From a virus, in IMG/VR virus record IMGVR_UViG_3300045999_008746, positions 1 to 22,463 of that record: a stretch of 22,463 bases of DNA. One strand, 5' to 3'. A model generated the notes under the pieces. It ran no database searches, was not told the origin of the DNA, and worked only from the letters and a program-made list of their open reading frames with translations. Shown here piece after piece: positions 1-17,900 of this stretch (position 1 is its first letter; the number at the start of each line of letters is the position of its first letter). The translations under genes and the position numbers were made by a program.

Positions 1-15
1 GTGGTCAGCACGTGA
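1..15 (+). CDS. 3' end of an upstream gene (partial)
   Basis: In frame 1 the window opens with four sense codons (Val-Val-Ser-Thr) followed by TGA at 13-15. That stop overlaps the GTG start of the next gene as GTGA, the same junction style seen repeatedly in this window. This suggests the operon continues upstream. Nothing can be said about the product from four residues, and the reading is inferred only from the overlap pattern. Confidence 0.35.
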   Translation: MVST

Positions 16-1127
16 AGATTGCCGTTCGCAACTCGTGCGACGACTTCAAGAGCTACCGGGCCGCCCGCGTCAAGAGCCTGTTCAACGTCGAAAGCGGCGC
101 AAACTTCGAACACGAAGCCAATCTGGAGATCGACGACGGCAGTTGGCAGATTGGGCTGATCGTAGGGCCGTCCGGCTCCGGCAAAACCTCATTAGGTAAG
201 CGGATCTTTGGGCGTGACGATGCCATCTACTCGCCAAATGGTTGGGCTCACGACAAGCCCATAGTGGATTGCATTCTGCCGGGCGGTGATTTCGATGCCG
301 TAACCGGCGCGCTTGCTGCAGTGGGCTTGGGCAGCGTCCCCTCGTGGCTGCGGCCGTATCCGGTGCTCTCTAACGGCGAAAAATTCAGAGCCGACCTAGC
401 CCGCATTGTTTGCGAAGAGCCCGACGAAATCGTGGTGGATGAGTTCACCTCCGTGGTGGATCGCCAGATTGCGAAATTCGGGGCCATGGCGTTTTCGAAG
501 GCGTGGAAGCGCACGAAGGGCAAGCGATGCGTTTTGCTGAGCTGCCACTACGACATTATCGAATGGGTTGAACCCGATTGGGTGTACGACACACAGACGG
601 CTACCTTCCAACGCGGGCAAGCCGGGAGGTCTCTTTGGCGACGGCCAAGGTTCGATCTTGAGGTTTGGGAGGTTGACCGGAGTTACTGGCCGCTCTTTGC
701 TCCGCATTACTATCTGAGCCTGCCTCCCATGATCGCCGCAACGTATTACGTGGGCACCGTGGAAGGCGAGCCCGCCTGCCATTTGGCCGTTTCCCCGCGC
801 CTCGAAGTGGGCGGTATGCGCGCCTCTCGCATGGTCGTGATGCCGGAGTGGCAAGGCGCTGGCATTGGCCTGCGCTTCCTCAACGCAATCTGCGAGCACC
901 AAACGTCTGGGCAGGGCAAGTACGGCGACCGGGTAAAGGCCGTGTACTTCCACACCTCGCATCCCGGCCTGTGCGCTGGCCTGCGCCGCGACAAACGCTG
1001 GCGGCAGACGAGCGCCAAGCTGCATGGCGAGTCGAAGAAAGGCGCACGCAAGCGCGGCATGGCGACGGGCTACGGCGGGCACTGGCGGGCGGTGCAAGGC
1101 TTCAAATACATTGGAGCTGCCGCATGA
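12..1127 (+). CDS. ABC-type ATPase fused to a GNAT-like acyltransferase domain
   Basis: The N-terminal half is an ABC-class ATPase. It has Walker A GPSGSGKTS (residues 52-60), an ABC signature LSNGE (119-123), Walker B EIVVDEFT (139-146) running into the D-loop SVVD, and an H-loop histidine at 179. No membrane segment is visible, so this is not a transporter in itself. The C-terminal half, from about residue 225, resembles GNAT acyltransferases: RMVVMPEWQGAGIG (273-286) fits the acyl-CoA-binding motif A, preceded by an HYYLS element (232-236). The arrangement matches the known class of ABC ATPases fused to a predicted acetyltransferase (COG2401-like). The phage Mu Mom DNA-modification protein is also GNAT-like, so nucleic-acid base modification is an attractive but unproven role. 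The GTG start at 12 overlaps the previous stop, and the gene's TGA overlaps the ATG of the formyltransferase-like gene. The substrate is unknown. Confidence 0.85.
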   Translation: MKIAVRNSCDDFKSYRAARVKSLFNVESGANFEHEANLEIDDGSWQIGLIVGPSGSGKTSLGKRIFGRDDAIYSPNGWAHDKPIVDCILPGGDFDAVTGALAAVGLGSVPSWLRPYPVLSNGEKFRADLARIVCEEPDEIVVDEFTSVVDRQIAKFGAMAFSKAWKRTKGKRCVLLSCHYDIIEWVEPDWVYDTQTATFQRGQAGRSLWRRPRFDLEVWEVDRSYWPLFAPHYYLSLPPMIAATYYVGTVEGEPACHLAVSPRLEVGGMRASRMVVMPEWQGAGIGLRFLNAICEHQTSGQGKYGDRVKAVYFHTSHPGLCAGLRRDKRWRQTSAKLHGESKKGARKRGMATGYGGHWRAVQGFKYIGAAA

Positions 1128-1732
1128 AGGTGCTTCTTGCTGGGCAAAAGGTTTTCGGCGCTGCGGCTTTGGAGCTGCTGCTTCATCTTGGCCACGAGGT
1201 GGTCGCCGTGTTTGCGCCGCCGCCCAAAGGCGACAAGGTTGACCGATTGGCGAGCCAAGCGCTGGCTTTCGGCATCCAGCCTCAAAGCGGGCTCACCGCA
1301 GACAAGGTGCCGCCCGGCACGGATCTGATCGTCACGGCTCACAGCCACGACTACATCACCAGCGAAGCGCTGCAGCGAACCACGTACGGTGGCATTGGGT
1401 ATCACCCGTCACTGCTGCCCCTGCACCGGGGCAAAGATGCGATCCGCTGGGCCATCCGGATGGGCGACAAGGTGACCGGCGGCACCGTGTATTGGCTCAG
1501 CGACCACGTGGATGGCGGGCCGATCGCCGCTCAAGACTGGTGCTTTGTGCGCCCCGGCGACGACGCGATGGCGCTTTGGCAGCGAGAGCTTGCCCCGATG
1601 GGGCTGCGCCTCTTTCGGCGCGCTCTCACCGACATTTCCAGCGGAAACATTGTGCGCATCCCGCAGGACGAAAGCCTCGCCACGTGGGAGCCATCTCTTG
1701 ATCGACCCAAACTTGCGAGCGCCAAGCCATGA
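1124..1732 (+). CDS. formyltransferase-fold protein (Fmt/PurN-like N-terminal domain) with altered active site
   Basis: This 202-residue protein matches the folate-dependent formyltransferase fold. It has an N-terminal Rossmann-like start (MKVLLAGQKVFG), the HPSLLPLHRG motif (94-103) and a GGTVYWLSDHVDGGPI segment (119-134) with the expected catalytic Asp at about 130. In methionyl-tRNA and GAR formyltransferases the motif reads Asn-x-His; here it reads Gly92-Tyr93-His94, so the catalytic Asn is missing. The protein lacks the C-terminal tRNA-binding domain of Fmt (usual length about 310 residues), so initiator-tRNA formylation is unlikely. The ATG at 1124 overlaps the previous TGA and has GGAG upstream. 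A longer reading that starts at 848 runs inside the ATPase-GNAT gene and is rejected. By context it may transfer a one-carbon or acyl group to an amine made by neighbouring enzymes; this is inference. Confidence 0.85.
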   Translation: MKVLLAGQKVFGAAALELLLHLGHEVVAVFAPPPKGDKVDRLASQALAFGIQPQSGLTADKVPPGTDLIVTAHSHDYITSEALQRTTYGGIGYHPSLLPLHRGKDAIRWAIRMGDKVTGGTVYWLSDHVDGGPIAAQDWCFVRPGDDAMALWQRELAPMGLRLFRRALTDISSGNIVRIPQDESLATWEPSLDRPKLASAKP

Positions 1733-1788
1733 ACAGTCGTCGAATTGAAGATCTGCACCCGGCCGACGCCCGGAATAAAAAAGCGTGA
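1729..1788 (+). pseudogene. 19-codon remnant duplicate of the endolysin gene start
   Basis: ATG at 1729 opens a 19-codon frame ending in TGA at 1786-1788. Its first 12 residues (MNSRRIEDLHPA) are identical to the start of the M15 peptidase at 2828. Over the first 42 bases, 35 are identical; six of the seven differences are synonymous or start-codon changes. The ATG overlaps the formyltransferase stop (ATGA), and the TGA overlaps the GTG start of the methyltransferase (GTGA). It looks like the scar of recombination that placed the methyltransferase between the formyltransferase and the endolysin. It may persist as a coupling leader, since no good ribosome-binding site precedes the methyltransferase GTG. 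Confidence 0.8.
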
Positions 1789-2831
1789 TTCATCACGGCG
1801 ATTGCCTTGAGGTGATGCGCACGCTGCCCGATTGCAGCGTCGATGCGGTCGTGACCGACCCACCGTATGGACTGTCCTTCATGGGCAAAAAATGGGACTA
1901 CGACGTACCAAGCGTCGAAGTATGGGGTGAGTGCTTGCGGGTGTTGAAGCCCGGCGGGCATCTGCTGGCTTTTGCTGGGACTCGCACCCAGCACCGCATG
2001 GCCGTTCGCATCGAGGATGCGGGGTTTGAGATACGCGACATGATTGCGTGGGTTTACGGCAGCGGGTTCCCGAAGTCGCACAACCTAAAGGACGATTGGC
2101 AAGGTTGGGGCACCGCACTCAAGCCCGCGCTAGAGCCGATCACCGTGGCCCGAAAGCCGTTGGCAGGGACGGTGGCAGAGAATGTGTTGGCGCACGGCGC
2201 GGGTGCGCTGAACATTGATGGGTGTAGAGTTCCGCATGGCGCTGATGTTGATCTTGGCGCAGTGCAGCATTGTCAAACGCATCAAGGCGGTCACACTGTC
2301 ACGCTAAACAATCCCGGCTTTAGCACTGCTACTTACAAACCACAAGGCCGCTGGCCCGCCAACCTAATCCACGACGGGAGCGATGAGGTAACGCGACTGG
2401 CAGGCTCTGCCGCTAGATTCTTTTACTGCGCGAAAGCAAGTAAAGCGGATCGAGATGAAGGGCTAGACGACATTGACGGCAAGATCGTAGGGGCTAAAGG
2501 GAACGGGCTAGCTCGAAAATGCGCGACTTGTGGGGCGTCTGTACTTGATGGGTGCAATTGCCAAGATCGCACATTCGAAAACCCAAAGCGCAAAAACCAC
2601 CATCCAACCGTCAAGCCTACTGACTTGATGCGCTACCTATGCCGCCTTGTTACGCCGCCGGGCGGCGTCGTGCTTGACCCATTCATGGGCAGCGGCAGCA
2701 CAGGCAAAGCAGCGGCTTTGGAAGGGTTTGAATTTATCGGCATCGAACGTGAGGCCGATTACGTCGCGATCGCCCGCCGCCGAATCAATCACTCATACCC
2801 AGAACTTGCCCTGCAGGGAGGCTCGTTGTGA
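1785..2831 (+). CDS. DNA methyltransferase, beta-class (N6-adenine or N4-cytosine)
   Basis: This 348-residue SAM-dependent DNA methyltransferase has its catalytic motif IV TDPPYG (24-29) near the N-terminus. The SAM-binding motif DPFMGSGSTG (298-307) is near the C-terminus and is preceded by HPTVKP (273-278). This IV-before-I order defines the beta class, which methylates exocyclic amines (N6 of adenine or N4 of cytosine). Between them is a variable target-recognition region and a small Cys cluster, CATCG...CNC (Cys246, 249, 257, 259), that may bind zinc. The GTG start at 1785 gives MIHHGDCLEV, a typical family N-terminus. The stop overlaps the GTG of the endolysin gene. No restriction endonuclease is adjacent, so this is an orphan phage methylase. 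Bases about 2200-2600 look less GC-rich than the flanks, in keeping with acquisition by exchange. Target sequence is unknown. Confidence 0.93.
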   Translation: MIHHGDCLEVMRTLPDCSVDAVVTDPPYGLSFMGKKWDYDVPSVEVWGECLRVLKPGGHLLAFAGTRTQHRMAVRIEDAGFEIRDMIAWVYGSGFPKSHNLKDDWQGWGTALKPALEPITVARKPLAGTVAENVLAHGAGALNIDGCRVPHGADVDLGAVQHCQTHQGGHTVTLNNPGFSTATYKPQGRWPANLIHDGSDEVTRLAGSAARFFYCAKASKADRDEGLDDIDGKIVGAKGNGLARKCATCGASVLDGCNCQDRTFENPKRKNHHPTVKPTDLMRYLCRLVTPPGGVVLDPFMGSGSTGKAAALEGFEFIGIEREADYVAIARRRINHSYPELALQGGSL

Positions 2832-3271
2832 ACAGCCGCAGAATCGAAGATCTACACCCGGCCGTCGCCGCCAAAGCCCGCGAATTTCTCCGCCTCTGCG
2901 AGCAGCAATGGCCGGGCAACGAGGTGGATGTGATCATCACCTCTACCATGCGCTCCATGGCTGAGCAGGAACGCCTCTACGCCCAAGGGCGCACCGCGCC
3001 CGGAAAGATTGTCACCAAGGCCAAGCCGGGGCAGTCCATGCACAACTACGGGCTGGCGTTCGATGTGGTGCCCCTGCGCTACGGTAAGCCCGTGTGGGGC
3101 ACTACCGGCGCAGATGGCGAACTGTGGAACCGGATTGGGCAGATAGGTGAATCCGTGGGCCTAGAATGGGCCGGGCGCTGGCAGCGCTTTCGCGAATTCC
3201 CCCACTTCCAATGGACAGGCGGGCTTACCCTTGCCGACCTGCAGAGCGGGAAACGTCCGGGGCTGGCTTAA
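2828..3271 (+). CDS. M15-family peptidase, probable endolysin (L-alanyl-D-glutamate peptidase type)
   Basis: This 147-residue enzyme shows the M15 zinc-peptidase signature SMHNYGLAFD (70-79), giving zinc ligands His72 and Asp79. REFPHFQW follows, with His126 as third ligand and Glu123 in the catalytic acid position. Length and motifs match phage endolysins of the T5 type, which cut the L-Ala-D-Glu bond in peptidoglycan stem peptides. No signal peptide or membrane segment is seen, so release would need a holin. The GTG start overlaps the methyltransferase stop (GTGA). The last 47 bases overlap the 3' end of a convergent minus-strand gene. Lysis at the end of infection is the expected role. Confidence 0.92.
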   Translation: MNSRRIEDLHPAVAAKAREFLRLCEQQWPGNEVDVIITSTMRSMAEQERLYAQGRTAPGKIVTKAKPGQSMHNYGLAFDVVPLRYGKPVWGTTGADGELWNRIGQIGESVGLEWAGRWQRFREFPHFQWTGGLTLADLQSGKRPGLA

Positions 3272-4095: not shown

Positions 4096-4512
4096 ATGAA
4101 GAAAGCCCAGCAGGCCGCACAGCCTCCAACCGCTCCCCCTAGAAAAAAGCCGGGGCCAGTTGGCCACGTGCCGACCGCCCAAACCCGCAACCTTGTATCG
4201 CTCGCCATGCTCAACGACATGACGCACGCGCAGGCCGCAAGGCTTGTGGAGATCGACGAGGTGACACTGCGCAAGCACTACGCGGATGAGCTGGCGCACG
4301 GCAAGGCCCGGATGATTTCCATGGTGGCCGCGAACCTGTACCGCATCGCGCAGCAGACGGCCGATCTGAAGGCCGCGCTCACCGCCAGCATCTTTGTGCT
4401 CAAGAGCAAGGGCGGCTGGAACGATCGCGCCGCGCAGGCCGACGTAGAGGTGGAAACGCCGGGGCCGGTGAAGGTGCGCCTGCGGCTGGGTGACAAGGCG
4501 GAGAGCGCCTAA
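4096..4512 (+). CDS. terminase small subunit-like protein
   Basis: This 138-residue basic protein lies directly before the large terminase, overlapping it as TAATG. Residues about 34-62 (from VSLAMLNDMTHAQAARLVEI to TLRKHY) form a helix-turn-helix of the type found in phage small terminase subunits. There, an oligomer recognises the packaging site and hands DNA to the large subunit. The N-terminus is Pro- and Lys-rich and probably unfolded; the C-terminus after about 115 is also extended and may contact TerL. The ATG at 4096 follows a weak GGTGAT ribosome-binding site that falls inside the second dyad. Identity rests on position, size and the helix-turn-helix, since small subunits vary greatly in sequence. 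Confidence 0.8.
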   Translation: MKKAQQAAQPPTAPPRKKPGPVGHVPTAQTRNLVSLAMLNDMTHAQAARLVEIDEVTLRKHYADELAHGKARMISMVAANLYRIAQQTADLKAALTASIFVLKSKGGWNDRAAQADVEVETPGPVKVRLRLGDKAESA

Positions 4513-5798
4513 TGGGTGCCGCCCGCAAACTGCTTGAGATCGAGTACGAGCGCCCATGGCTGTACCCCGCTCAGCAGCGGGCAATTTTCGATTGCGTGGA
4601 TCTGAACGGCGAGCCAGCCCGCTACGGCGTGGTCGAGGCCAGCACCAAGGCCGGGAAAACGGTTGGCTGCATGGCGTGGATTGTCGAACAGGCGTACATG
4701 AGAGCGGGCATCAACCGCAACTTCTGGTGGGTAGCCCCGGTCTACCCGCAGGCCAAGATCGCGTTCCGTCGCATCAAGGCCGGGCTACCTACAGGATCGT
4801 TCGCGGCAAACGAGGCCGATCTGAAGATCACGCTGCTGGGCGTGGGCTCAACGATCTGGTTCAAGACGGGCGAAAAGCCCGACAACCTGTACGGTGAGGA
4901 TGTGTACGCCGCCGTGGTGGACGAGGCCAGCCGCTGCCGCGAGGATTCGTGGATTGCTCTGCGCTCCACCCTCACCGCTACCAGAGGCCCGGTGCGGATC
5001 ATCGGTAACGTGAAGGGACGGGCCAACTGGCACTACCGTATTGCCCGACGCGCCGAATCCGGCGAACCCGGCTACAGCTACGCCAAGCTCACTGCCTACG
5101 ACGCGGTGGCCGGTGGCGTGCTCGATGCGGCTGAGATCGAGGATGCCAAGCGAGCGCTGCCCGAACAGGTGTTCCGCGAGCTCTACCTTGCCGAACCCTC
5201 CGACGACCAAGGCAACCCGTTTGGCATCCAGCACATCGCCGCTTGTGTCGCACCGCTATCCGAATCCCGCCCCGCCGCCATCGGCATCGACCTCGCGAAA
5301 TCGTTCGACTGGACGGTGGTGATCGGGCTCGATCGCATGGGCAACGTGTGCGGATTCGAGCGCTGGCAGGGGCCGTGGGAAGAAACGGAGCGGCGCATTT
5401 TGCAGCTCACTGGCAACACTCCCACCCTTGTGGACTCGACGGGCGTTGGCGACCCGATCGTGGAGCGCCTGCAGCGCAAGCGCGGCAACTTCACCGGCTT
5501 CAAGTTCACCTCCGAATCCAAACAGCGCCTCATGGAAGGGCTCGTCATGGCCATCCAGCAGCGCCGCATCCGATTTCCAGACGGTCACATTCGCAAAGAG
5601 CTGGAAAACTTCGAGTACGAGTACACGCGCACGGGCGTCCGATATTGCGCGCCGGAAGGCGTTCACGATGACTGTGTGATGGCACTGGCACTTGCAGAAG
5701 AGCAGCGCCGCCAGAGCTTCCCCGAAACCCTCAATTCCCGACCCGACTCACTGCCACGGATTAGCCCGTGGATTTCGGGCGATCGATCTGGAGAGTAA
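4512..5798 (+). CDS. terL: terminase large subunit (packaging ATPase/nuclease)
   Basis: This 428-residue packaging motor has both expected halves. The ATPase has a Walker A variant ASTKAGKT (43-50), Walker B AAVVDEAS with Asp137 and Glu138, and the coupling-type segment VRIIGNVKGR (161-170). The RNase H-fold nuclease has acidic residues in IGIDLAKSFD (Asp260), TLVDSTGVGD (Asp308) and GVHDDCVMALALA (Asp386/387). It translocates DNA through the portal into the prohead and cuts the concatemer. Its start overlaps the terS stop, and its stop lies 2 bases before the portal start. The length is typical, and no motif is missing. Confidence 0.96.
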   Translation: MGAARKLLEIEYERPWLYPAQQRAIFDCVDLNGEPARYGVVEASTKAGKTVGCMAWIVEQAYMRAGINRNFWWVAPVYPQAKIAFRRIKAGLPTGSFAANEADLKITLLGVGSTIWFKTGEKPDNLYGEDVYAAVVDEASRCREDSWIALRSTLTATRGPVRIIGNVKGRANWHYRIARRAESGEPGYSYAKLTAYDAVAGGVLDAAEIEDAKRALPEQVFRELYLAEPSDDQGNPFGIQHIAACVAPLSESRPAAIGIDLAKSFDWTVVIGLDRMGNVCGFERWQGPWEETERRILQLTGNTPTLVDSTGVGDPIVERLQRKRGNFTGFKFTSESKQRLMEGLVMAIQQRRIRFPDGHIRKELENFEYEYTRTGVRYCAPEGVHDDCVMALALAEEQRRQSFPETLNSRPDSLPRISPWISGDRSGE

Positions 5799-5800
5799 CC

Positions 5801-7198
5801 ATGGCAGAGCGCAAGGCCGTCAAGTACGACGCCAGCACCGTTGGCACATCTGGCCTGCAGCAGTACGGCGGATACGTCAACGAAGAGTTCGTGAAAGAGC
5901 TGCGCGGCAACAACGCCGCCCGCGTTTATCGCGAAATGGCCGACAACGATCCCACCATCGGGGCCATGTTGTTTGCCATCACCACGCTGATCCGGCAGGT
6001 GCAGTGGAGCTTCCAAAGCGCCGACGACTCCCCAGAATCAGAGGCCGCCAAGCAGTTCGCGGAAGAGGTGCTCAACGATATGAGCGTCTCGTGGTCGAGC
6101 GTGGTGGCAGAGATCTGTTCCATGTTCACCTACGGCTTCGCGCCCATGGAAATCATCTGGAAGAAGCGCGACGGCACAGATGCCCGTGATGGCAGCCGCC
6201 GATCTGCCTACACGGACGGCCGCATCGGGCTGCGCGCACTCTCGCTGCGCGCCCAAAACACGGTCAACCGCTGGGAGATCGATCCGGAGGATGGATCTAT
6301 CGACGGGCTGTATCAGCAACCGTGGCAAGGCCCGCAGGTGTTCATCCCGATTGAAAAGATCGTGCTCTTTCGCACCACCGAAGAGAAAAACAACCCGGAA
6401 GGCCGCAGCGTCCTGCGCAACGCCTATAGGCCGTGGTACTTCAAGAAGCGCATCGAAGAGATTGAGGCCGTGGGCATCGAGCGCGATCTGGCCGGGTTGC
6501 CTATCGCTTACATCCCCGCGCAGTACCTCAGTTCAGACGCTGACCCGATGGATAAGGCCGTTGCCAACGAGTACAAGCGCCTCATCCGCAGCATCCGCCG
6601 CGACCAACAGGAAGGGCTCGTGCTGCCCAGCGCCCGCGATTCGTCGGGCAACCTCATGTTCGATGTGAAGTTGCTCAACGCAGGCGGCTCGCGCACGTTC
6701 AACACGACGGAGATCATCGACCGCTACGACAAGCGCATCGCCGGTTCCGTACTCGCGGATTTCATCTTCCTTGGCCAAGGGGCCACGGGCTCGTTCGCGC
6801 TTTCCAGCGACAAGACGCAGCTTTTCGCCACCGCAGTGGGGGCGTTCACCACTTCGATCTGCGACACGTTCAACCGCCACCTCATGCCGCGGCTTTGGAA
6901 GCTCAACGGCATGGATGTGGAATATATGCCCACCCTCGTGGCAGGCGATCTGGAAAAGCCGGATCTGACCGCGCTGGGCGAGTTCATCACCAAGCTCACG
7001 ACGGCCGGCGCCCCGTTGTTCCCGGATCGAGAGCTGGAGAACCACCTGCGCAACGCAGCGGGCCTGCCGCTCGCGCCGGAGGAAGGCGTGGATTCAGAGC
7101 TGCGCTCGATGAGCGATCAGACAGACATGGCCGAAATGCAGGGGCGCATCGCATCAGCGACCGCGCAGGCCGAAGGCGAAGCGGATCAAGAGGAATAA
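5801..7198 (+). CDS. phage portal protein
   Basis: This 465-residue protein follows terL. The start at 5801 is preferred because GGAGAG lies six bases upstream and overlaps the terL stop; a start at 5768 adds eleven unlikely residues. The sequence has typical portal features. NDPTIGAMLFAITTLIRQVQW is the early core helix. MFTYGFAPMEIIW and FIPIEKIVLFRTTEEKNNPEGRS form the conserved central strands, and a helical segment (RNAYRPWYFKKRIEEIEAVG) follows. The C-terminal 50 residues are acidic and Gln/Ala-rich (DMAEMQGRIASATAQAEGEADQEE). It would form the dodecameric ring at the capsid vertex through which TerL pumps DNA. It resembles the DUF935/gp29-like portal group, but I cannot fix the subfamily. 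No capsid or protease gene follows, which is unusual. Confidence 0.9.
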   Translation: MAERKAVKYDASTVGTSGLQQYGGYVNEEFVKELRGNNAARVYREMADNDPTIGAMLFAITTLIRQVQWSFQSADDSPESEAAKQFAEEVLNDMSVSWSSVVAEICSMFTYGFAPMEIIWKKRDGTDARDGSRRSAYTDGRIGLRALSLRAQNTVNRWEIDPEDGSIDGLYQQPWQGPQVFIPIEKIVLFRTTEEKNNPEGRSVLRNAYRPWYFKKRIEEIEAVGIERDLAGLPIAYIPAQYLSSDADPMDKAVANEYKRLIRSIRRDQQEGLVLPSARDSSGNLMFDVKLLNAGGSRTFNTTEIIDRYDKRIAGSVLADFIFLGQGATGSFALSSDKTQLFATAVGAFTTSICDTFNRHLMPRLWKLNGMDVEYMPTLVAGDLEKPDLTALGEFITKLTTAGAPLFPDRELENHLRNAAGLPLAPEEGVDSELRSMSDQTDMAEMQGRIASATAQAEGEADQEE

Positions 7199-7201
7199 TC
7201 G

Positions 7202-7540
7202 ATGGCCGACGAAATCAAACTCGTACGCGGCAACAACCGCCCGTACATCAAGATCACGCTCACCGATGCGGATAACGTAGCCATCGATCTGAGTGCAGTT
7301 ACCACCACCGTATCGGTGCGGTTCCGCTCCGTCACGAGCGAAACAACGCTGGCAACGCTCTCAACCACGAAGATTGGCAACGGCACCACGGGCGAAGTGC
7401 AGTTCAACTTCCCCGGCTCCACGCTGGATGTGCCGGCTGGGAACTACGAGTTCGAAATCGAAGTGGACTTTAACGGCGAGAAGCAGACCGTTTACCAAAC
7501 GGTGAAGTGCATCGTTCGCGAAAAGTTCGCCACGACCTAA
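7202..7540 (+). CDS. BppU-like Ig-fold structural protein, copy 1
   Basis: This 112-residue, all-beta protein has the pattern of the N-terminal domain of baseplate upper proteins: a start KLVRGNNRPYIKITLTD, then TTTVSVRFRS, GEVQFNFPGSTLDVPAGNYEFEIEVDF, and an ending VKCIVREKF. Such domains usually attach receptor-binding proteins to the tail tip. It is clearly paralogous to the protein at 11923-12273, sharing VRG, the VRF strand, STLA, TLDVPAG/ALDVPAG, FEIE/AEIE and VRE(K/R)F. The ATG lies three bases after the portal stop. The exact position in the virion is inferred. Confidence 0.75.
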   Translation: MADEIKLVRGNNRPYIKITLTDADNVAIDLSAVTTTVSVRFRSVTSETTLATLSTTKIGNGTTGEVQFNFPGSTLDVPAGNYEFEIEVDFNGEKQTVYQTVKCIVREKFATT

Positions 7541-10508: not shown

Positions 10509-11612
10509 ATGCTCCTTACGCTACTCTCCCCGTCGGGAGTTAGCGGCGGCATCGGGGTCGTCAATGCGACACTAGGCACGCTGGAACTCTCCGCTACCGG
10601 AGAGCTAACTACAACCGGCGTGAATGGATCGCTGAGCGCTACGCTTGGCGATCTTTCTCTTTCCTCCTCTTCGCAACTCGAAATCCGTGGCGCGAGCGCT
10701 TACACGCTCGATGCGCTCACGGTATCGGCGGCGGGCAGGCTTGAGCTGCGGGCCACGGCAAGCCCCACGCTCGGTGCGCTTACGCTCAACGCCGCTGGCG
10801 CGATCCAAGCCTCCAACTCTGGCCAGCTCAACGTAACACTTGGCAGCCTCTCGCTCGCAGCGGCCGGCGCGCTGCAGATCAACGCGGCCTCGGGTGGCGC
10901 GCTATCGGATCTCACGGCGGCCGCCACTGGCCGTCTGCTACTGCAGGCGCAGCTCAGCGCCACGCTCGGCACGCTCACCGCCACCTTTGCCGCAGGGCTG
11001 CCCGTTGTCGGTACGCTCTCCAGCCAACTCGGCGCGCTCTCCTCCGCCGCCACGGGCCAACTGCGGATCAGCGGAAACACGTTCTCTGTGCTTGGCGCTC
11101 TCACGGGCTCCGCCTCGGCGCAGTTGCAGGTCGCAGGCACCGTAAGCGCAACGCTCGGCACGCTTGCCGTCACGAGCACCGCCAAGCTGCCCATCGTCGG
11201 CACCTTCTCCGCCACGCTCGGAGATCTGGTTGCCACCTCGGCCACCGGCCAGCTCAAGATCTCGGGCAACTTCGCGGGGACGGAAACTGGGCTCGACGGG
11301 CTGCAGGCAGCAGGGCTTCTGCACATCCGTGGCGTGCTCGCGGCGCTTGAAGCGCAGGATGGATTCTCGGCAGAAGGCAACCTGTACGCGGCCAACTCGG
11401 CAGCGGCCATCTGGGCTTATGTGCTGCCGAACGGCCTGAGCGCGGCCGCCACGGTGGTGCAGATCCACACGATGCTGAGCAACCTGCACCGCATCCACGG
11501 CCTTGAGCCGGGCGCGCCGCTCGCCGTATCTCCCACGCAGCGCACCGCAGGCAGCATCATCCAGAGCATCACCACCGCCGGCACCACCACCACCGTGGAG
11601 CGCCTGCAGTGA
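10509..11612 (+). CDS. repeat-rich fibre-like structural protein (about 11 units of 20-24 residues)
   Basis: Residues about 15-275 consist of imperfect repeats with the plan SATLG-x-L-x4-AxGxLxIxG. Each unit probably supplies two short beta strands, as in fibre shafts or beta-solenoids. The units show alternate small and hydrophobic residues and almost no charged residues. The C-terminal 70 residues are non-repetitive (AAIWAYVLP, then RIHGLEPGAPLAVSPTQRTAGS) and resemble a conserved capping segment I associate with phage tail-structure proteins. It ends in a GTGA overlap with the next gene. Role as a shaft or spacer is inferred. Confidence 0.7.
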   Translation: MLLTLLSPSGVSGGIGVVNATLGTLELSATGELTTTGVNGSLSATLGDLSLSSSSQLEIRGASAYTLDALTVSAAGRLELRATASPTLGALTLNAAGAIQASNSGQLNVTLGSLSLAAAGALQINAASGGALSDLTAAATGRLLLQAQLSATLGTLTATFAAGLPVVGTLSSQLGALSSAATGQLRISGNTFSVLGALTGSASAQLQVAGTVSATLGTLAVTSTAKLPIVGTFSATLGDLVATSATGQLKISGNFAGTETGLDGLQAAGLLHIRGVLAALEAQDGFSAEGNLYAANSAAAIWAYVLPNGLSAAATVVQIHTMLSNLHRIHGLEPGAPLAVSPTQRTAGSIIQSITTAGTTTTVERLQ

Positions 11613-11926
11613 GCGTAAACCCGCGTGCCGTAGCGCTGCAGGGCGTGGGCTTTGGCGCGCTCGCCGTCGCCAGCCTTGGCTTCCTGCTCGATCAGCCCGC
11701 CCCAACAGGGCCGCTGTTCGCCAACGCGCAGGTGCTGCAGGAGGCTTACGCACGCGCACGCGGGGCCGCCTTGGCCGCCACTTCTGTGGAAGAGCTGCTT
11801 GCCAGCATGGAAGCGCTCGACGCGCTCGCAAGCATCGAAGCCCAAAGTATCAGCGCGGTGACAACGGTGAACGACACCTTCGCCTCCGCCAGCGTGTTTT
11901 TCGATATTGCGACGATTGATGATTGA
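11609..11926 (+). CDS. small structural-region protein with hydrophobic segment (105 aa)
   Basis: The GTG start at 11609 overlaps the preceding TGA. The 105-residue product opens MSVNPRAVALQGVGFGALAVASLGFLLDQ, with a hydrophobic stretch at about 10-27 that could be a membrane segment or buried strands. The rest is Ala-rich and helical (VEELLASMEALDALASIEAQ) and ends acidic. Proteins with this start occur next to tail-fibre genes in other phages. Function unknown; a role in virion assembly is likeliest by context. Confidence 0.65.
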   Translation: MSVNPRAVALQGVGFGALAVASLGFLLDQPAPTGPLFANAQVLQEAYARARGAALAATSVEELLASMEALDALASIEAQSISAVTTVNDTFASASVFFDIATIDD

Positions 11927-12273
11927 GCAAACTCGTGGCACCGTTCGAAATAATTCGAGTAGTGCGCGGTGATGAAGGCATCGCCGTAGATCTGCACTTC
12001 ACGAGAGCAAACGGCGCAGGGCTCAACTTGAGTAGCCCAACCACGGAAGTAGTGGTGCGCTTTGCTCCCGCTCACTCAGAAAGCACGTTGGCTCTGCTGA
12101 CCGTCACCAAGGTGAACGGCGGGCAGAACGGCGAATGCGTGGCCACGTTCCCGCCCGGCGCACTGGATGTGCCCGCCGGGTTCTACCACGCCGAGATCGA
12201 GCTGCGCATCGCGGGAGAGCCGCAGACGGCATTCGATCCGCTGAGGTTTTTTGTACGAGAACGGTTCCAGTAG
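11923..12273 (+). CDS. BppU-like Ig-fold structural protein, copy 2
   Basis: This is a second copy of the Ig-like family at 7202, 4.7 kb away. Shared features are a VVRG start, a VVVRFAP strand, STLALLTVTKV, ALDVPAGFYHAEIELRI and the ending FVRERF. The sequences are well diverged, so this is an old duplication or an independent gain. The start is uncertain: TTG at 11923 overlaps the previous stop (TTGA), while GTG at 11935 is also possible; neither has a strong ribosome-binding site. By family it may anchor fibre or receptor-binding modules. Confidence 0.72.
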   Translation: MSKLVAPFEIIRVVRGDEGIAVDLHFTRANGAGLNLSSPTTEVVVRFAPAHSESTLALLTVTKVNGGQNGECVATFPPGALDVPAGFYHAEIELRIAGEPQTAFDPLRFFVRERFQ

Positions 12274-12804: not shown

Positions 12805-14928
12805 ATGTCGAACGCCGTTTTTGGCCGGTTCGTATTTAACCGCACCGTATTCAACGGCACCGGCGGCGAGGTGGCTCGCCTTGCCGCTTCCCCCGCAGCA
12901 GTCTCCACCGCGACAGGCGCGCTCGCTCAGCAGGTGCCGCTTGCTGGCGCGGCCATCGCCACAAGCGCCGCCTCTGTAGCGGCTGACAAATACGCACCGC
13001 TGGGGGCCAATGCCTCCGCGCTCTGCAGCGCCTCCGCTGGGCTCGACAAGCACGCGCCCCTTGGCGTTACCGCTACGGCGGCAAGCACCACCACCGCGCT
13101 ACTCGACAAGTACGCGCCGCTCGACGCCTCCGTGGCCGCACGCAGCGCCACCACGGGGGCCGTCGATAAGTACGCGCCGCTGGGGGCCATCGCCTCTGCC
13201 AACGCCACGGGCTCCGGATACGCCACGTGCATATTCCCCGTTACCGGCGCAGCGCAGGCGATCGTCACTGCCTCCGGAGCTCCGGTGGTGGCCTACGAGT
13301 TCCGGGCCAGCGCCGCAGGGCGGGCCAGCGCTACCGCAACCGCCGTGGGCGAGCTCTCGTGCTCCGCCGCCATCACTGCGCGCAGCACCGTTACCGCCGC
13401 ACTCACCCGCGCCGCGCCGATCGCCGCGACCGCCGCCGGGCAGGGCAATGCAACTGCATTGCTCGACCTCTCGCGCAACCTCGCTGGGGCCGCATCGGCA
13501 GCCAGCAGCGCTTCGGCCGACCCACGCTCGATCTACAACGTGGTCGCCTCTGGCAGCGCCTCAGCGGCCGCCACGGCTGGGGTGCACCTTGGCATCATCG
13601 TAGCAGGCAGCGCCGCCGCACGGGCTTCTGCCTCCGCCGCGCCTACTGCTAGCGCGCCGCTAGCGGGCAATGCCGCGACCCGTAGCACCGCCTCCGGGCT
13701 GCTGCTCATCAACGCCACGTTCGACGGGCTTGCGCAGGCGATCAGCTCCGCCTCAGCTTCGGCCGGGCTGCAGAAGATCGTTTCCGTCGCGGGCGTGGCT
13801 GCAGTCTCGAACGCCGCTGCCGCACTTGGGCTCACGGTGGTGGTGCACTCTGCCGGGGCTGCTGCTGCTCGCTCGACTGCGGCAGGCGCACTGGACACCA
13901 CCCGCCCGCTGGCCGGGGCGATCTCCGCCGCCTCCAGCGCTTCCGCCTTGGCCGTGGCCGACCGTCGCATGGCAGGTGCAGGCTCCGCCTCCGCCTCCGC
14001 CACGGGCGCAGTGCTCGTGGCCTACACCGCCGCCGGATCTGCAGCCGCCACAAGCGCTGCCTCCGCCTCCGCTGATCTGCTCAAGCCGGTGGCCGGTGTG
14101 GTGGCCGCTTGCGTGGCCAGTGCCACCGCCGATGCGATCGCTCAGAAGCCGCTTGCTGGGGCTGCGCAGGCCGTGGCCACGGGGCTGGGCCTTACCACCC
14201 ACGCCACGCCGCTCGCCGCCTCTGCGGCCGCCTCCGGGCTCGCCAGCGCCGCACTCGATCGGCAGCCGAACCTTGCCGGGGTGGTTTCCGCCAGTAGCAG
14301 CGCCTCCGCAGCCATCGAAAGCGCCAAACCCCTCGCCGGGGCAGCGCTCGCGGCACAGGCGGCCACCGCCACGCTGGGCCTTGCCGTGCCCATGGCGGGC
14401 TCGTGCGCCGCCAATACGGGCTCTGATGCCGCGCTTGGCGTTACCGTACCCCTTGCCGCCTCGATCTACGCCACTGGCGTAGCCGCCGCCGCGCTGGGCA
14501 ACGAAGCCACGCCGCTGGCCGGGCTGGCTGCGAGCCGGTCGTCCACCACAGGGGCCATTGCCCGCGCCGCACCGCTCGCGGCCATTGCTGCAGCAGCGCC
14601 CGCCTCGACCGGCACGCTCTCGCTGGCCGTACGCCTTGCAGGCAGCGCGCAGGCGCAGGCTCCCGCCATCACGGCGGCGCTGGGCCATGCCATTCCGCTC
14701 AGCGCTTCGGCCACCGTCACCGCCATCAGCTCCGCACGCATCCGGCGGATCATCTACACAAGTTACGGCTTCGCACTCGCCGCCACGCCGCGCACGCTGC
14801 GCGCCACGGTGCGCGCTGAATTGATCTACGCGGAAGCCACCGCTATACCCGAAGAGATTTACACGGCGCAAAGCGGGGGCATTTACGCCGCCGTTACCGC
14901 GTCGAATGTCACCGCAGAGGCTGCTTAA
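12805..14928 (+). CDS. giant Ala/Ser repeat protein (about 30 units of 20-22 residues)
   Basis: This 707-residue protein is almost entirely built of imperfect units of about 20-22 residues with the plan PLAG-x-AxAxSxASAxLD. The first five units (VPLAG, APLGA, APLGV, APLDA, APLGA) are spaced exactly 20 residues apart. Alternating small and hydrophobic residues suggest stacked beta strands forming a rod or fibre shaft. Charged residues are rare until the C-terminal 50 residues (RRIIYTSYGFALAATPRTLRATVRAEL), which may form a cap or attachment site. GAGG lies upstream of the ATG. It ends directly before the tail-fibre ATG, so the two may be assembled together. Very GC-rich codon use gives long open antisense frames, which I reject. 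Confidence 0.75.
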   Translation: MSNAVFGRFVFNRTVFNGTGGEVARLAASPAAVSTATGALAQQVPLAGAAIATSAASVAADKYAPLGANASALCSASAGLDKHAPLGVTATAASTTTALLDKYAPLDASVAARSATTGAVDKYAPLGAIASANATGSGYATCIFPVTGAAQAIVTASGAPVVAYEFRASAAGRASATATAVGELSCSAAITARSTVTAALTRAAPIAATAAGQGNATALLDLSRNLAGAASAASSASADPRSIYNVVASGSASAAATAGVHLGIIVAGSAAARASASAAPTASAPLAGNAATRSTASGLLLINATFDGLAQAISSASASAGLQKIVSVAGVAAVSNAAAALGLTVVVHSAGAAAARSTAAGALDTTRPLAGAISAASSASALAVADRRMAGAGSASASATGAVLVAYTAAGSAAATSAASASADLLKPVAGVVAACVASATADAIAQKPLAGAAQAVATGLGLTTHATPLAASAAASGLASAALDRQPNLAGVVSASSSASAAIESAKPLAGAALAAQAATATLGLAVPMAGSCAANTGSDAALGVTVPLAASIYATGVAAAALGNEATPLAGLAASRSSTTGAIARAAPLAAIAAAAPASTGTLSLAVRLAGSAQAQAPAITAALGHAIPLSASATVTAISSARIRRIIYTSYGFALAATPRTLRATVRAELIYAEATAIPEEIYTAQSGGIYAAVTASNVTAEAA

Positions 14929-17900
14929 ATGGGCATCAAGATCACCAACAACGCTTACTCCGAACTCGCTGCGGGGCTAAGCACATCGGCCACCTCGATC
15001 ACGCTCACGACGGGCACCGGAAGCCGCTTCCCAACGCTGGGAGCAGGCGACTACTTCTGGGGCACCATCGTCGCTGAGAACAACGTCGATCTGATGGAGA
15101 TTGTGAAGGTGACCGCCCGATCGGGCGACACGCTCACGGTGGTGCGCGCACAGGAAGGCACCGTTGCGGGCGTCTGGAGCACCAACGACAAGTTCCAACT
15201 GCGCATCACCGCGCAGACCATGCTCGACTACTCCGACGTTGCGCACCTCACGGGCGTGCTCCCGATCGCGCAGGGCGGTACTGGATCGACGAACGCAGCC
15301 GATGCGCGTGCGGCGCTGAGTGTGCTCTCGCTCGCGGGCGGCACGCTCACCGGCGAGCTTTACGTTCCAAACTTAACCGTTGGCGGGCAAGGCCGGTCGG
15401 CCCTTAACGCTATCGGCGGCAACATTGGCGCGACGGCTGGCAGTTGGAACAACGCCCAGCTTGAGTTGAAGTCGACAGATGCAGGTACTGTTGCGCTTGC
15501 TTTCCACCGTGCTGGGTACACATCAAACACGATCGAAGCGCGAGATGGTAATGGGCTTCGTATAGACGGCAATTTCATCCTCCACGCCGGTAACTACAAC
15601 AGCTATGCGCTACCGCTCACAGGCGGGACTATTACCGGCACCGTCAGCATTAACGGTGGGGGTTCGCAGCCGCTCAACTTAACGACGAGCAGCAGCAGCC
15701 CGTGGGGATTTGGGTTGACCCGGTCGGACGCAAACGTCTCAAGCAGGGTATTTCTGCACAACGGCAGCGGCAGTTGGACGTGGGTTTACGAACACAACCC
15801 AGTTTTTTATAACGGCGGGGCATACAGCCCATTTCTGCATAGCGGAAACTATAGCAGCTACGCTTTGCCGCTTACGGGCGGGACTATTACCGGCACGCTC
15901 TACTTTACCGATACCACGAACGGCATCTACAAATCCGGTGGTCGCTTAACGGTAAGATCTGAGTCAACTGATGACGTAGCAAACTTTGCAAGTTACGGGT
16001 TGTATCTCCCTAAGACCGGACAAACCGCTGGTCTGTATGTCCAAAGCCCCATAGAGGCTCGCGGTGGATTGCGAATCGGCGACGGTGCAGGAAGCGGCAC
16101 GATCACCGTTGGCGCAGATACGGCGGCGACTGCAAACAGGCTAGTACAGCGCGACAGCGGCGGCGACATATACGGTCGCTACTTTTTCGGCGTTCACTTT
16201 AACCAGTCGAGCAGCAACACAGAGAACCCGTCGATCGCTGCGTTTTGGACAAACAGCGGGGCGGACAATTACAATCGAAAGTCATCGCCAGCGCACGTAA
16301 TAAGCCAATTAGGCTTGCTGACCACGAGCAATTACACGAGCTACGCGCCCTCTATTGGCGGCGGCAGCACGATCGGCGGAATCACGTATTTCAGCAACGG
16401 AGAATCGATCAACCTGTACGGCATTCGTGGGCGATTCACCAACGAGTACATCCACCTCTACAACAAGGTCGGAGTTGGAAACCCAAGTGGGTGGGGGCAA
16501 GGCGAAGGAAATACCCCAAACCAAGGGCTGTCTACGTACGGCGGAATCAACGTCGCTTACGGCACCAATGACTCATCGACCTTTAACGGCACTTTGCGCG
16601 TCAACGGCAACACGATTCGCCAAGGCAACAACCTCGCCCGGCCAATTGCCAACTGGTCGGCAAGCAGCACATCTACGGGCATGGTCATCTTCAAGTTGCC
16701 GGGCAGTTCCGGCAACTACGGCATGGTTCACATGGTATTCGATATTTACGAATACAACTCAAATGCCGTGTCCACAGTCATTGTTGGTGGCCACAATTGG
16801 TCGTCCGGCTGGTACAACGTCGGGGCCAATATTATTGGGCAGTGTGGCAAAGAGGTGCGGCTTGGCTACGTAGACGGTCAATACTGCGTCGTGTTTGGCA
16901 CTGGCTCTTCTACGTGGGAGTACGGCACGATCATCCTGCGCAAGATCCATAACGCTTCGTTCTACGACAACACGATGGATATGGGCGGCGCGTTCACCGC
17001 TTCACAAGTCACCTCCGCATCTTTTACCAACATCACCGGAGATCTTCGTGCGCTGCGTACGCCTGCGTCGTTCAATGCGGGCGGCGCGATCACGCAGGCG
17101 GGAAACCAAGTTCTGCACGCCGGCAACTACAACTCATACTCACCAACACTGACCGGTGGCGGGGCATCCGGTACGTGGGGCATCAACGTCACGGGCTCTG
17201 CAGCGTCTCTGAATTTTGGTGGCGGGTACACCGTGCAGATGGGCGATTGGGGGCTACGCAACACCACACCTTCCGGCTGGATTCAATTGGGGCCAGCAAA
17301 CGGTAGCCACGCCCACATTTACACCGACAGATCAAACTTTTACTTCAACGTAGACCTGTATACGAACGGGTATCTCCAGCTCCATTCGAACAACTACAAC
17401 AGCTATGCGCCAACGCTTACCGGCGGCGGGGCATCCGGTACTTGGGGTATTAGTATCACTGGTAACGCAGCCACCCTCCAAGGATATCAGTGGAACTCTG
17501 CTGGCAAGGATATTCGCGGTAGTGACATCTACGCAGATAGTTGGCTGCGCAATTACAACAGCGGCACTGGCTTGTATAACCAAGCAACCGCAAACCACTG
17601 GTACTCTGACGGTCAATATTGGAACGTCGGATACTCTGGAACGACTGGCATTCGGCTGCGCAACGGGCACGCAGGCTCAATCCTTGGCTACCTGTACGCA
17701 GAAACTAGCGGCCGGTTTGGTTTGCTCAACAGTGGCGGGAGTTGGAGCGTCAGCTTAAACCCAGCCGATCACCGTCACGTGCTGTTTGGCGGAGGTTACG
17801 ATGACAACGCCCACAGCACTCGTGATGGCGTGAGGTTGCTGCTTGGCGGAGGCAATACCGACGCGCAAGGCAACTATTACATTGGAACAAACTTCAACAA

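Follow-up and report, generated by a model that had tools for sequence, protein, structure and literature searches.

What do the enzyme genes at the start of this viral stretch do together? The window (the whole 22,463-nt stretch of DNA that was analyzed) begins with three consecutive enzyme genes on the plus strand, which the original prediction read as a single cassette for a complex base modification, encoded back to back with overlapping stops and starts. The first (12–1127) encodes a 371-residue ABC ATPase-GNAT fusion (phrog_11143), with an ABC half at about residues 1–204 and a GNAT half at 205–371. It is followed by a single-domain formyltransferase-fold enzyme of 202 residues (FT; 1124–1732) and a beta-class N6/N4 DNA methyltransferase (1785–2831). 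The predicted overlap is present between ABC-GNAT and FT, as an ATGA at 1124–1127, but FT and the methylase are separated, with the FT stop at 1732 and the methylase start at 1785. Filling this gap is a relic of an endolysin 5′ end (1729–1788, plus strand), within which 1730–1770 is an 85% copy of 2829–2869. The endolysin gene itself (VanY/M15 peptidase type; 2828–3271, plus strand) lies outside the module and overlaps the methylase ORF at 2828–2831. At the other end, the window edge truncates a ParB-like gene to its last codons (1–15, plus strand; V-V-S-T and TGA). The full gene was found in a longer contig from the window phage’s twin, whose ABC-GNAT protein is 100% identical to that of the window (L002:9441–10004; 187 aa), and it encodes a ParB-N domain and a C-terminal domain here called TAIL. 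We consider that these genes probably include a module with which the phage modifies its DNA to shield the genome late in infection, with ABC-GNAT and TAIL as its core and FT as its usual third member in this branch.

The ABC ATPase-GNAT fusion proposed from the letters of the window was borne out. The ABC half matched PF00005 above the cut-off (3.5e-6). The GNAT half of the window protein matched PF13508 below the cut-off (0.0013), and the same family was matched at E values up to 1 by 80 of 80 scanned GNAT halves (best 1.1e-7). Both folds were also recovered by structure, using AF2 models with a pLDDT of 82.8 for the whole protein and 88.8 for the GNAT half by itself: the ABC half aligned with 9a5y_B (Z 15.7, rmsd 3.0, 185 residues aligned) and the GNAT half with 1y9k_C (Z 15.6, rmsd 2.4, 130 aligned). 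Residues were counted in 166 of the 171 loci. Ten of the eleven positions checked in the Walker A, signature, Walker B, and H-loop elements were identical in 166/166 relatives, the remaining one being T in 134 and S in 32. The CoA loop of GNATs has the motif Q-x-x-G-x-G/A, and it was complete in every relative counted (Q281, G282, G284, and G286 in 166/166). The C-terminal part of the GNAT half was net positive, at residues 300–330 in 166/166 and at 331–355 in 164/166. PADLOC gave only weak matches to the protein, the best being mad3 (2.4e-8).

Co-occurrence of the ABC-GNAT and formyltransferase genes across phages, named as a test in the original prediction, was found in both directions. FT lies directly downstream of ABC-GNAT in 132 of the 145 unique loci that offer at least 800 nt on that side, with a median of 15 nt between profile matches, and in 37/42 after collapse at 70% identity. 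Conversely, ABC-GNAT is upstream of FT in all 56 unique FT loci with at least 800 nt upstream, from 74 loci taken from the best 80 of 358. Among named phage records with an ABC-GNAT of at least 50% identity, 18 of 19 also match FT (60 of 65 FT matches listed). These tallies draw on the best 80 relatives per search, at roughly 52–76% identity, together with the identical contig. Loci that shared 500 identical nt within the gene were counted once, each denominator omits loci whose flanks were short or whose genes were incomplete, and the main tally used ORFs of at least 40 aa. Profiles were built iteratively from the loci on which they were counted, and weak matches lean towards agreement. FT is absent in 13/145 loci, and no substitute enzyme was recognized by eye in the loci that lack it.

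The third gene fared differently. Its product was correctly named as a beta-class methyltransferase, with PF01555 at 1.5e-34 and DPPY before DPFMGSGSTG; the order DPPY before FxGxG is that of beta-class methylases, and PADLOC methylase models also match it. Its predicted membership of the cassette was not upheld. The genes are adjacent and co-oriented in the window, and three other stretches (L139, L144, and L233) have a related methylase no more than about 0.5 kb downstream of ABC-GNAT, as might be expected if methylation were an integral step of a three-enzyme DNA-modification cassette. We regard that arrangement as very unlikely, given that a PF01555-type methylase occurs in only 5 of 171 unique stretches, one of which is the twin L002, where it is about as near, and another L031, where it lies about 9 kb from ABC-GNAT. 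At 70% identity this methylase class remains in 2 of 46 representatives (L002 and L031). The methylase also looks inserted, because two 85% identical copies of the endolysin 5′ end flank it, as an insertion might leave. The ABC-GNAT and FT pair is thus associated far above chance and the three-gene cassette is not, and the methylase looks like a separate, later addition, accessory to the conserved module.

A third core part, TAIL, was invisible to the original prediction in the window. This domain of approximately 37 residues is borne either on a ParB-like protein, as in the window’s phage, or on a short protein of as few as 41 aa; ParB fusions make up 78 of 164 TAIL proteins. TAIL lies upstream of ABC-GNAT in 154 of 155 loci, within 60 nt in 149 of them, and in 42/42 loci at 70% identity. 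The full ParB-TAIL protein matches phrog_620 (2e-55) and phrog_28816 (2.9e-9), the latter being the sole family matching TAIL (49/49); in Pfam, TAIL had no match worth naming (best 0.0045). TAIL was found twice in a set of 298 genomes from a single bacterial family, both times abutting ABC-GNAT; the set was centered on a known TAIL genome that is itself one of the two finds. It was found in 0/14 control genomes, and TAIL, FT, or ABC-GNAT in 0/34 Mom-control loci, these controls being close Mu relatives. The TAIL gene of one Porphyromonas phage record (PP754929) is labeled ‘acr candidate protein’, a label presumed to stem from a paper whose authors predicted candidates with a pair of programs and asked for these to be validated (PMC10367356). 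An independent counter-defense protein, such as an anti-CRISPR, that neighbors ABC-GNAT by chance would be hard to reconcile with this near-constant position, with the lack of TAIL elsewhere in the 298 genomes, and with the ParB fusions, and we consider it highly improbable.

The name formyltransferase holds for the fold of FT. PF00551 is its sole Pfam match (2.1e-20), and the Pfam scan of its 202 residues found no C-terminal tRNA-binding domain, as had been predicted and unlike methionyl-tRNA formyltransferase. Its nearest solved relatives, however, are the hydrolase domains of 10-formyl-THF dehydrogenase (9e-44), with methionyl-tRNA formyltransferase at 3.5e-28. Classical 10-formyl-THF formyltransferases (Fmt, ArnA, PurN) have a catalytic Asn-His-Asp. 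Counted in the 125 of 147 adjacent FT domains with at least 150 residues, His94 and Asp130 are kept in 125/125, and the usual catalytic Asn, at position 92, is found in 0/125, the window FT having Gly92. Judging from sequence, FT resembles the hydrolase domain found at the N-terminus of 10-formyl-THF dehydrogenase (ALDH1L1), without the classical catalytic triad. The two are alike in sequence, in keeping His and Asp, and in lacking Asn, whereas the phage enzyme stands alone as a single domain or is joined to ABC-GNAT and has Gly in place of Ile at the Asn position (113/125). FT could accordingly be pictured as an enzyme that recycles folate or removes formyl groups (10-formyl-THF to THF), serving nucleotide supply and only traveling with ABC-GNAT, as its nearest relatives and the missing transferase Asn would allow. 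This seems unlikely to us, as FT and ABC-GNAT form one ORF in two loci (L055 and L128), and both these fusions and the presence of ABC-GNAT at every tested FT locus argue for a shared substrate. PADLOC gave no FT match. We rejected phrog_9240 as a genome-wide probe of FT exclusivity: it matches 298/298 genomes and 12/14 controls, presumably through other formyltransferases.

If ABC-GNAT, TAIL, and usually FT work together, is DNA their target? The original prediction invoked Mom of phage Mu, and the GNAT half does share the superfamily fold with Mom, but no relationship in sequence was detected. As a candidate Mom homolog, it scored an hhalign probability of 0.35% (80 GNAT halves against 8 Mom proteins, the Mom profile being shallow at 85–99% identity). 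The Mom family PF25680, which Mu Mom itself matches at 2.1e-75, did not appear among the 15 families that the scan of 80 GNAT halves listed, and a predicted viral structure search with the GNAT half returned GNATs, none named Mom among the best 50 of 749 listed. At the level of sequence, then, the GNAT half is an ordinary GNAT rather than a Mom-like one, and a functional analogy with Mom would rest on the Com slot, not on homology.

Forty-four loci carry a Com zinc ribbon upstream of TAIL; the window’s own phage has ParB-TAIL instead, and the Com argument runs by family. Com and TAIL ORFs, computed from the longest start of each, overlap in 42/44 loci by a median of 44 nt, compared with 50 nt for com/mom in Mu, and the same Com profile detects Com in 33/34 Mom loci. 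We tallied the gene after Com in 63 unique Com loci, a sample that began with Mu Com as first sequence, took the best 80 of 294, and so leans to Mu-like phages. PF01555-type methylases accounted for 33, D12-type adenine methylases for 11, and Mom for 10; the ABC-GNAT/TAIL module followed in 1/63, and 8/63 had no recognized modification gene next. Pfam was run on one member per methylase cluster and blastp linkage placed the rest; profiles also recovered the PF01555-type and Mom clusters (33/33 and 10/10). Because Com is followed by Mom or a DNA methylase in 54/63 loci of this Mu-centered sample, DNA modification is the best reading of the module. RNA structure at the Com-TAIL junction gave a mean z of −1.03 (n = 44), vs. 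−0.13 for ParB-TAIL (n = 78), but the Mu mom positive control failed, at +0.79 (n = 29).

The GNAT half could instead be directed at the host. Its structural neighbors are mostly protein and small-molecule acetyltransferases, RimI and N-terminal acetyltransferases among them, and the phage GNAT Rac is described as modifying host RNA polymerase (PMC7824862). A takeover factor of this kind would modify a host protein or RNA (e.g., a ribosomal protein, RNA polymerase, or tRNA), with FT acting on the same target. GNAT fold neighbors are no guide to substrate, however, and the Com slot (mostly with DNA-modification genes in the sample taken), the ParB partner, and the terminase nearby in several phages argue against a host target, which we hold to be rather improbable. 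Taken together, Com slot, ParB partner, and late position point to phage DNA modification.

Known DNA-modification systems offer partial parallels. As in the Mu com-mom operon, Com stands before the module in 44 loci with a similar overlapping-gene geometry, and a GNAT-fold enzyme would be the catalyst; unlike that operon, the module has Mom in 0/171 loci (searched with a profile built from close relatives of Mu Mom) and adds the ABC ATPase half, TAIL, and FT, and the window phage carries ParB-TAIL rather than Com. The Com-linked adenine methylases of Mu-like prophages, such as Hin1523/Hia5, likewise sit in the Com slot, where methylases occur in 44/63 loci, but differ in transferring methyl, in being one gene, and in their unrelated fold. 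Dnd phosphorothioation similarly combines an ABC ATPase with a ParB-superfamily protein, DndB, in one DNA-modification system, whereas its chemistry concerns sulfur in the backbone and the main text of the source mentions no formyltransferase (PMC10853773).

For the favored reading, DNA modification by the module, we infer a working in which TAIL, alone or on the ParB-like protein, would bind the ABC-GNAT enzyme and deliver it to DNA. The ABC halves would dimerize with ATP and clamp or scan the DNA, and the GNAT half, with its full CoA loop and basic C-terminal part, would acylate an exocyclic amine of a base, with FT supplying or elaborating the group from 10-formyl-tetrahydrofolate. In Com-bearing phages, Com may switch translation on, as for mom in Mu, and protection would come at about the time of genome packaging. 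The chemical group, and the order in which FT and the GNAT half act, are more speculative. The 10-formyl-THF dehydrogenase domain formylates a phosphopantetheine thiol, and HypX has been reported to make formyl-CoA. By analogy, FT might make a formyl thioester from 10-formyl-tetrahydrofolate and CoA, and the GNAT half might pass this formyl, or else an acyl group that has been formylated, on to exocyclic amines of DNA bases, a scheme that we offer tentatively and think unlikely. Were it true, it would amount to a folate-derived, ATP-driven N-acyl DNA modification with a subunit as small as 41 residues, carried by phages or prophages of many bacterial phyla.

The ABC-coupled GNAT was reportedly first predicted to be a DNA acyl-modification enzyme by Iyer, Aravind and colleagues in 2013. 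Searching one open literature library, we found no report of TAIL, FT, or the Com slot with ABC-GNAT, on which the 2013 prediction may say more. This prediction, acyl modification of a DNA base, is stated for Tenacibaculum phage pT24 in a paper whose main text has neither ‘formyltransferase’ nor ‘ParB’ (PMC7824862); the pT24 protein has the same domain pair as the window protein and is 36% identical to it. The present analysis adds TAIL, FT, and the Com slot. What had been a lone prediction, that ABC-GNAT acts on DNA, can now be put to the test as a module of defined parts: a very small subunit that is almost always present, a partner tied to folate, and a connection to Com, the switch of phage Mu. 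The family is common; should a new base modification be confirmed, it would be a widespread one and would provide a way of making phage DNA restriction-proof of which we found no description in the open literature searched.

The ABC-GNAT family was found in at least 568 viral stretches and in 285 stretches of a species-level genome collection with titles spanning several phyla. Near distant ABC-GNAT relatives (28–47% identity), FT was not found in the Pmp13, LE4, Javan141, and pT24 stretches examined. TAIL was matched in Javan141 (9e-5) and, only in a small test set, in Pmp13 (5e-4), with no match in LE4 or pT24. Because these relatives have no FT and mostly no TAIL match, FT, and perhaps TAIL, is not needed by every branch. 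The position of the module also varies. In the window, the terminase large subunit gene (4512–5798, plus strand; PF17289 6.5e-5, just over the cut-off) lies 2.8 kb from FT and is followed by a Mu-like portal protein gene (5768–7198, plus strand; PF06074 5.9e-32). In Gordonia NHagos, terminase comes directly after the module, genes 1–4 encoding ParB-TAIL, ABC-GNAT, FT, and terminase, and in Pmp13 and LE4 it is two to four genes further along. Its place beside the module is taken by tail or other genes in Komp_PAO1_1, the Porphyromonas phage, and pT24. In several of the loci that lack FT, terminase-looking ORFs, as judged by eye, come next.

The window, a virus record of 22,463 bases, has four successive genes at its left end. 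They encode an ABC ATPase-GNAT fusion protein (ABC-GNAT; 12-1127), FT, a protein with a formyltransferase fold (1124-1732), a DNA methylase of the beta class (1785-2831) and, at 2828-3271, an endolysin; a terminase and a Mu-like portal gene lie further on. The ABC-GNAT gene overlaps the FT gene by ATGA and, by GTGA, an upstream gene cut by the window edge. In a longer contig (L002) with an identical ABC-GNAT protein, this upstream gene encodes a 187-aa ParB-like protein. ABC-GNAT relatives were gathered from viral contigs and a species-level genome collection, duplicates were dropped before counting, and neighbour genes in the resulting 171 unique loci were located with profiles made from the window proteins and their relatives. 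FT lay downstream of ABC-GNAT in 132 of the 145 unique loci with at least 800 nt there (viral 66/72, genome 66/73; 37/42 representatives at 70% identity), at a median distance of 15 nt across all 147 FT neighbours. In the reverse test from FT (best 80 of 358 matches, 74 of those tested), ABC-GNAT stood upstream in all 56 unique loci with room. Eighteen of 19 named phage records with ABC-GNAT at 50% identity or more also appeared among the FT matches listed, and in loci L055 and L128 the two proteins form one open frame.

The original prediction had joined ABC-GNAT, FT and the methylase in one DNA-modification cassette. Conserved co-occurrence in both directions upholds the pairing of the first two, but not the membership of the methylase, which is an accessory in the window. 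Its type was present in 5/171 stretches: close by in L002 (the twin of the window phage), L139, L144 and L233, and about 9 kb off in L031. Two 85% identical copies of the endolysin’s first codons (1730-1770 and 2829-2869) flank the methylase, as if an insertion had brought in or duplicated the start; the methylase thus appears to have been inserted between the FT and endolysin genes.

A near-constant partner lies upstream. The C-terminal ~37 residues of the ParB-like protein (TAIL; Y-x-x-Q-Y-G-V-I-V-x-C-x-D-E-x-x-Q-x-x-x-Y-x-x-L-x-x-x-G-x-x-x-K-V-V) are conserved, whereas the remainder varies, and in other loci this stretch is a separate short protein. TAIL was found upstream of ABC-GNAT in 154/155 loci with room, at most 60 nt away in 149 of them; 78 of 164 TAIL-bearing ORFs were ParB-fused, 81 were under 95 aa (shortest TAIL protein, 41 aa) and 5 were other. 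Its sole family match was phrog_28816, and no Pfam family matched. Among 298 genomes of one bacterial family, TAIL occurred twice, one of these being the genome on which the set was centred; both times it abutted ABC-GNAT, with FT next. Genome G083 of this set carries a third, distant ABC-GNAT-like gene (5e-29; C1:3013491-3014375) that had no TAIL match and may represent a separate branch of this family. In a Porphyromonas phage, a 42-aa TAIL gene (L401:3876-4004; PP754929.1 33155-33283) is labelled ‘acr candidate protein’, and its position suggests a modification-module subunit rather than an acr.

Four distant phage records showed no FT in the stretches examined. Three of them (Pmp13, LE4 and Javan141) keep a ParB-like neighbour. 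Only Javan141 has a TAIL match that holds (9e-5); that of Pmp13 is doubtful, reaching 5e-4 in a small set but failing at 0.01 in a larger one, and TAIL is absent from the examined stretches of LE4 and pT24. From this pattern, TAIL and ABC-GNAT look like the core in the window’s branch and FT a nearly constant addition; further out, TAIL and FT both fade. The ABC and GNAT halves are annotated as separate genes in Streptococcus phage Javan141 (L397:3986-5049) and pT24 (L400:3884-5056), perhaps reflecting a genuine division of the gene or else an interrupted reading frame.

In 44 loci the TAIL gene stands directly after a Com zinc ribbon (PF10122; 2.5e-13 and 1.8e-11 in two tested), the position that mom has in phage Mu. 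The Com and TAIL ORFs overlap in 42/44 (median 44 nt), resembling Mu, where the com-mom overlap is 50 nt. Translation of mom is switched on when Com binds a hairpin in the RNA close to the start of mom (PMC6483171). The same profile found Com in 33/34 Mom loci of close Mu relatives; unlike the module loci, none of the 34 contained TAIL, FT or ABC-GNAT. A query with Mu Com as its first sequence gave 63 unique Com loci among the best 80 of 294; in these, Com was followed by a PF01555-type methylase in 33, a D12-type adenine methylase in 11, Mom in 10 and the ABC-GNAT module in 1. The remaining eight had no recognised modification gene next, four being Com-like ribbons before other genes and one lying at a contig end. 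Given this majority, the slot is mostly one for DNA modification in the sampled loci. The very short ribbons before non-modification genes (L351:452-559; L353, L366 and L379 near 3000) may reflect another role for this motif; one of the genes after them has a weak, sub-threshold match to a capsid scaffold family. The cultured Pseudomonas phage Komp_PAO1_1 has the Com form (Com, 49-aa TAIL, ABC-GNAT, FT; Com at 4e-4 by tblastn and 1e-21 by profile), and its module does not adjoin the terminase.

Residue conservation accompanies the gene association. Ten of 11 checked positions in the ABC half and four in the GNAT CoA loop were identical in 166/166 proteins. Structurally, the ABC half resembles ABC ATPases, including SmsC2 and PhnK (Z about 15). 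The GNAT half, proposed earlier for comparison with Mom, models as a normal GNAT (pLDDT 88.8; Z 15.6) and showed no relationship to Mom by sequence; its basic C-terminal part would suit nucleic acid binding, without proving it. FT comes closest to the 10-formyl-THF dehydrogenase N-terminal domain (9e-44), then methionyl-tRNA formyltransferase (3.5e-28), GDP-sugar formyltransferase (about 1e-24), ArnA (2e-19), PurN (9e-18) and HoxX (6e-12). Its His94 and Asp130 are invariant in 125/125 domains, and the transferases’ Asn position holds Gly (113), Ile (10), Ala (1) or Ser (1). In the alignment examined, the dehydrogenase domain carries Ile at this position, FT mostly Gly. The dehydrogenase domain loads formyl onto a phosphopantetheine thiol, and the resemblance of FT to it makes formyl-CoA an attractive guess as the donor for GNAT.

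The evidence best supports a module that modifies DNA late in infection: TAIL, either joined to ParB or encoded after Com, would recruit an ATP-driven GNAT to DNA, GNAT would acylate a base, and FT would provide or elaborate the acyl group. A scheme in which GNAT acts before FT adds to its product is an equally good fit. Since distant relatives lack FT, the core of the proposed module can probably act without it, using another acyl-CoA. We infer DNA as the target from the Com and ParB context, the terminase context in some phages, and the prediction of ABC-GNAT proteins as DNA-modifying enzymes in PMC7824862, which cites a 2013 paper. We consider DNA modification likely, a confidence held down slightly by the weakness of two points, the terminase neighbourhood and the match to TAIL in more distant relatives. 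To that published prediction, a phage base-modification system of this kind would add the near-constant TAIL partner, the regular FT neighbour and the Com slot, none of which was reported in the literature searched.

Elsewhere in the window, a 1419-aa protein (14929-19188) that has a peptidase S74 chaperone domain at its end (1e-5) is probably a tail fibre. Proteins of 112 and 116 aa (7202-7540 and 11923-12273) are similar by eye, sharing VPAG-Y and VRE-F-type endings, and are possible duplicated structural proteins. Two repetitive proteins also lie in the structural region (10509-11612 and 12805-14928), one with L-G-x-L-type repeats and one Ala/Ser-rich.
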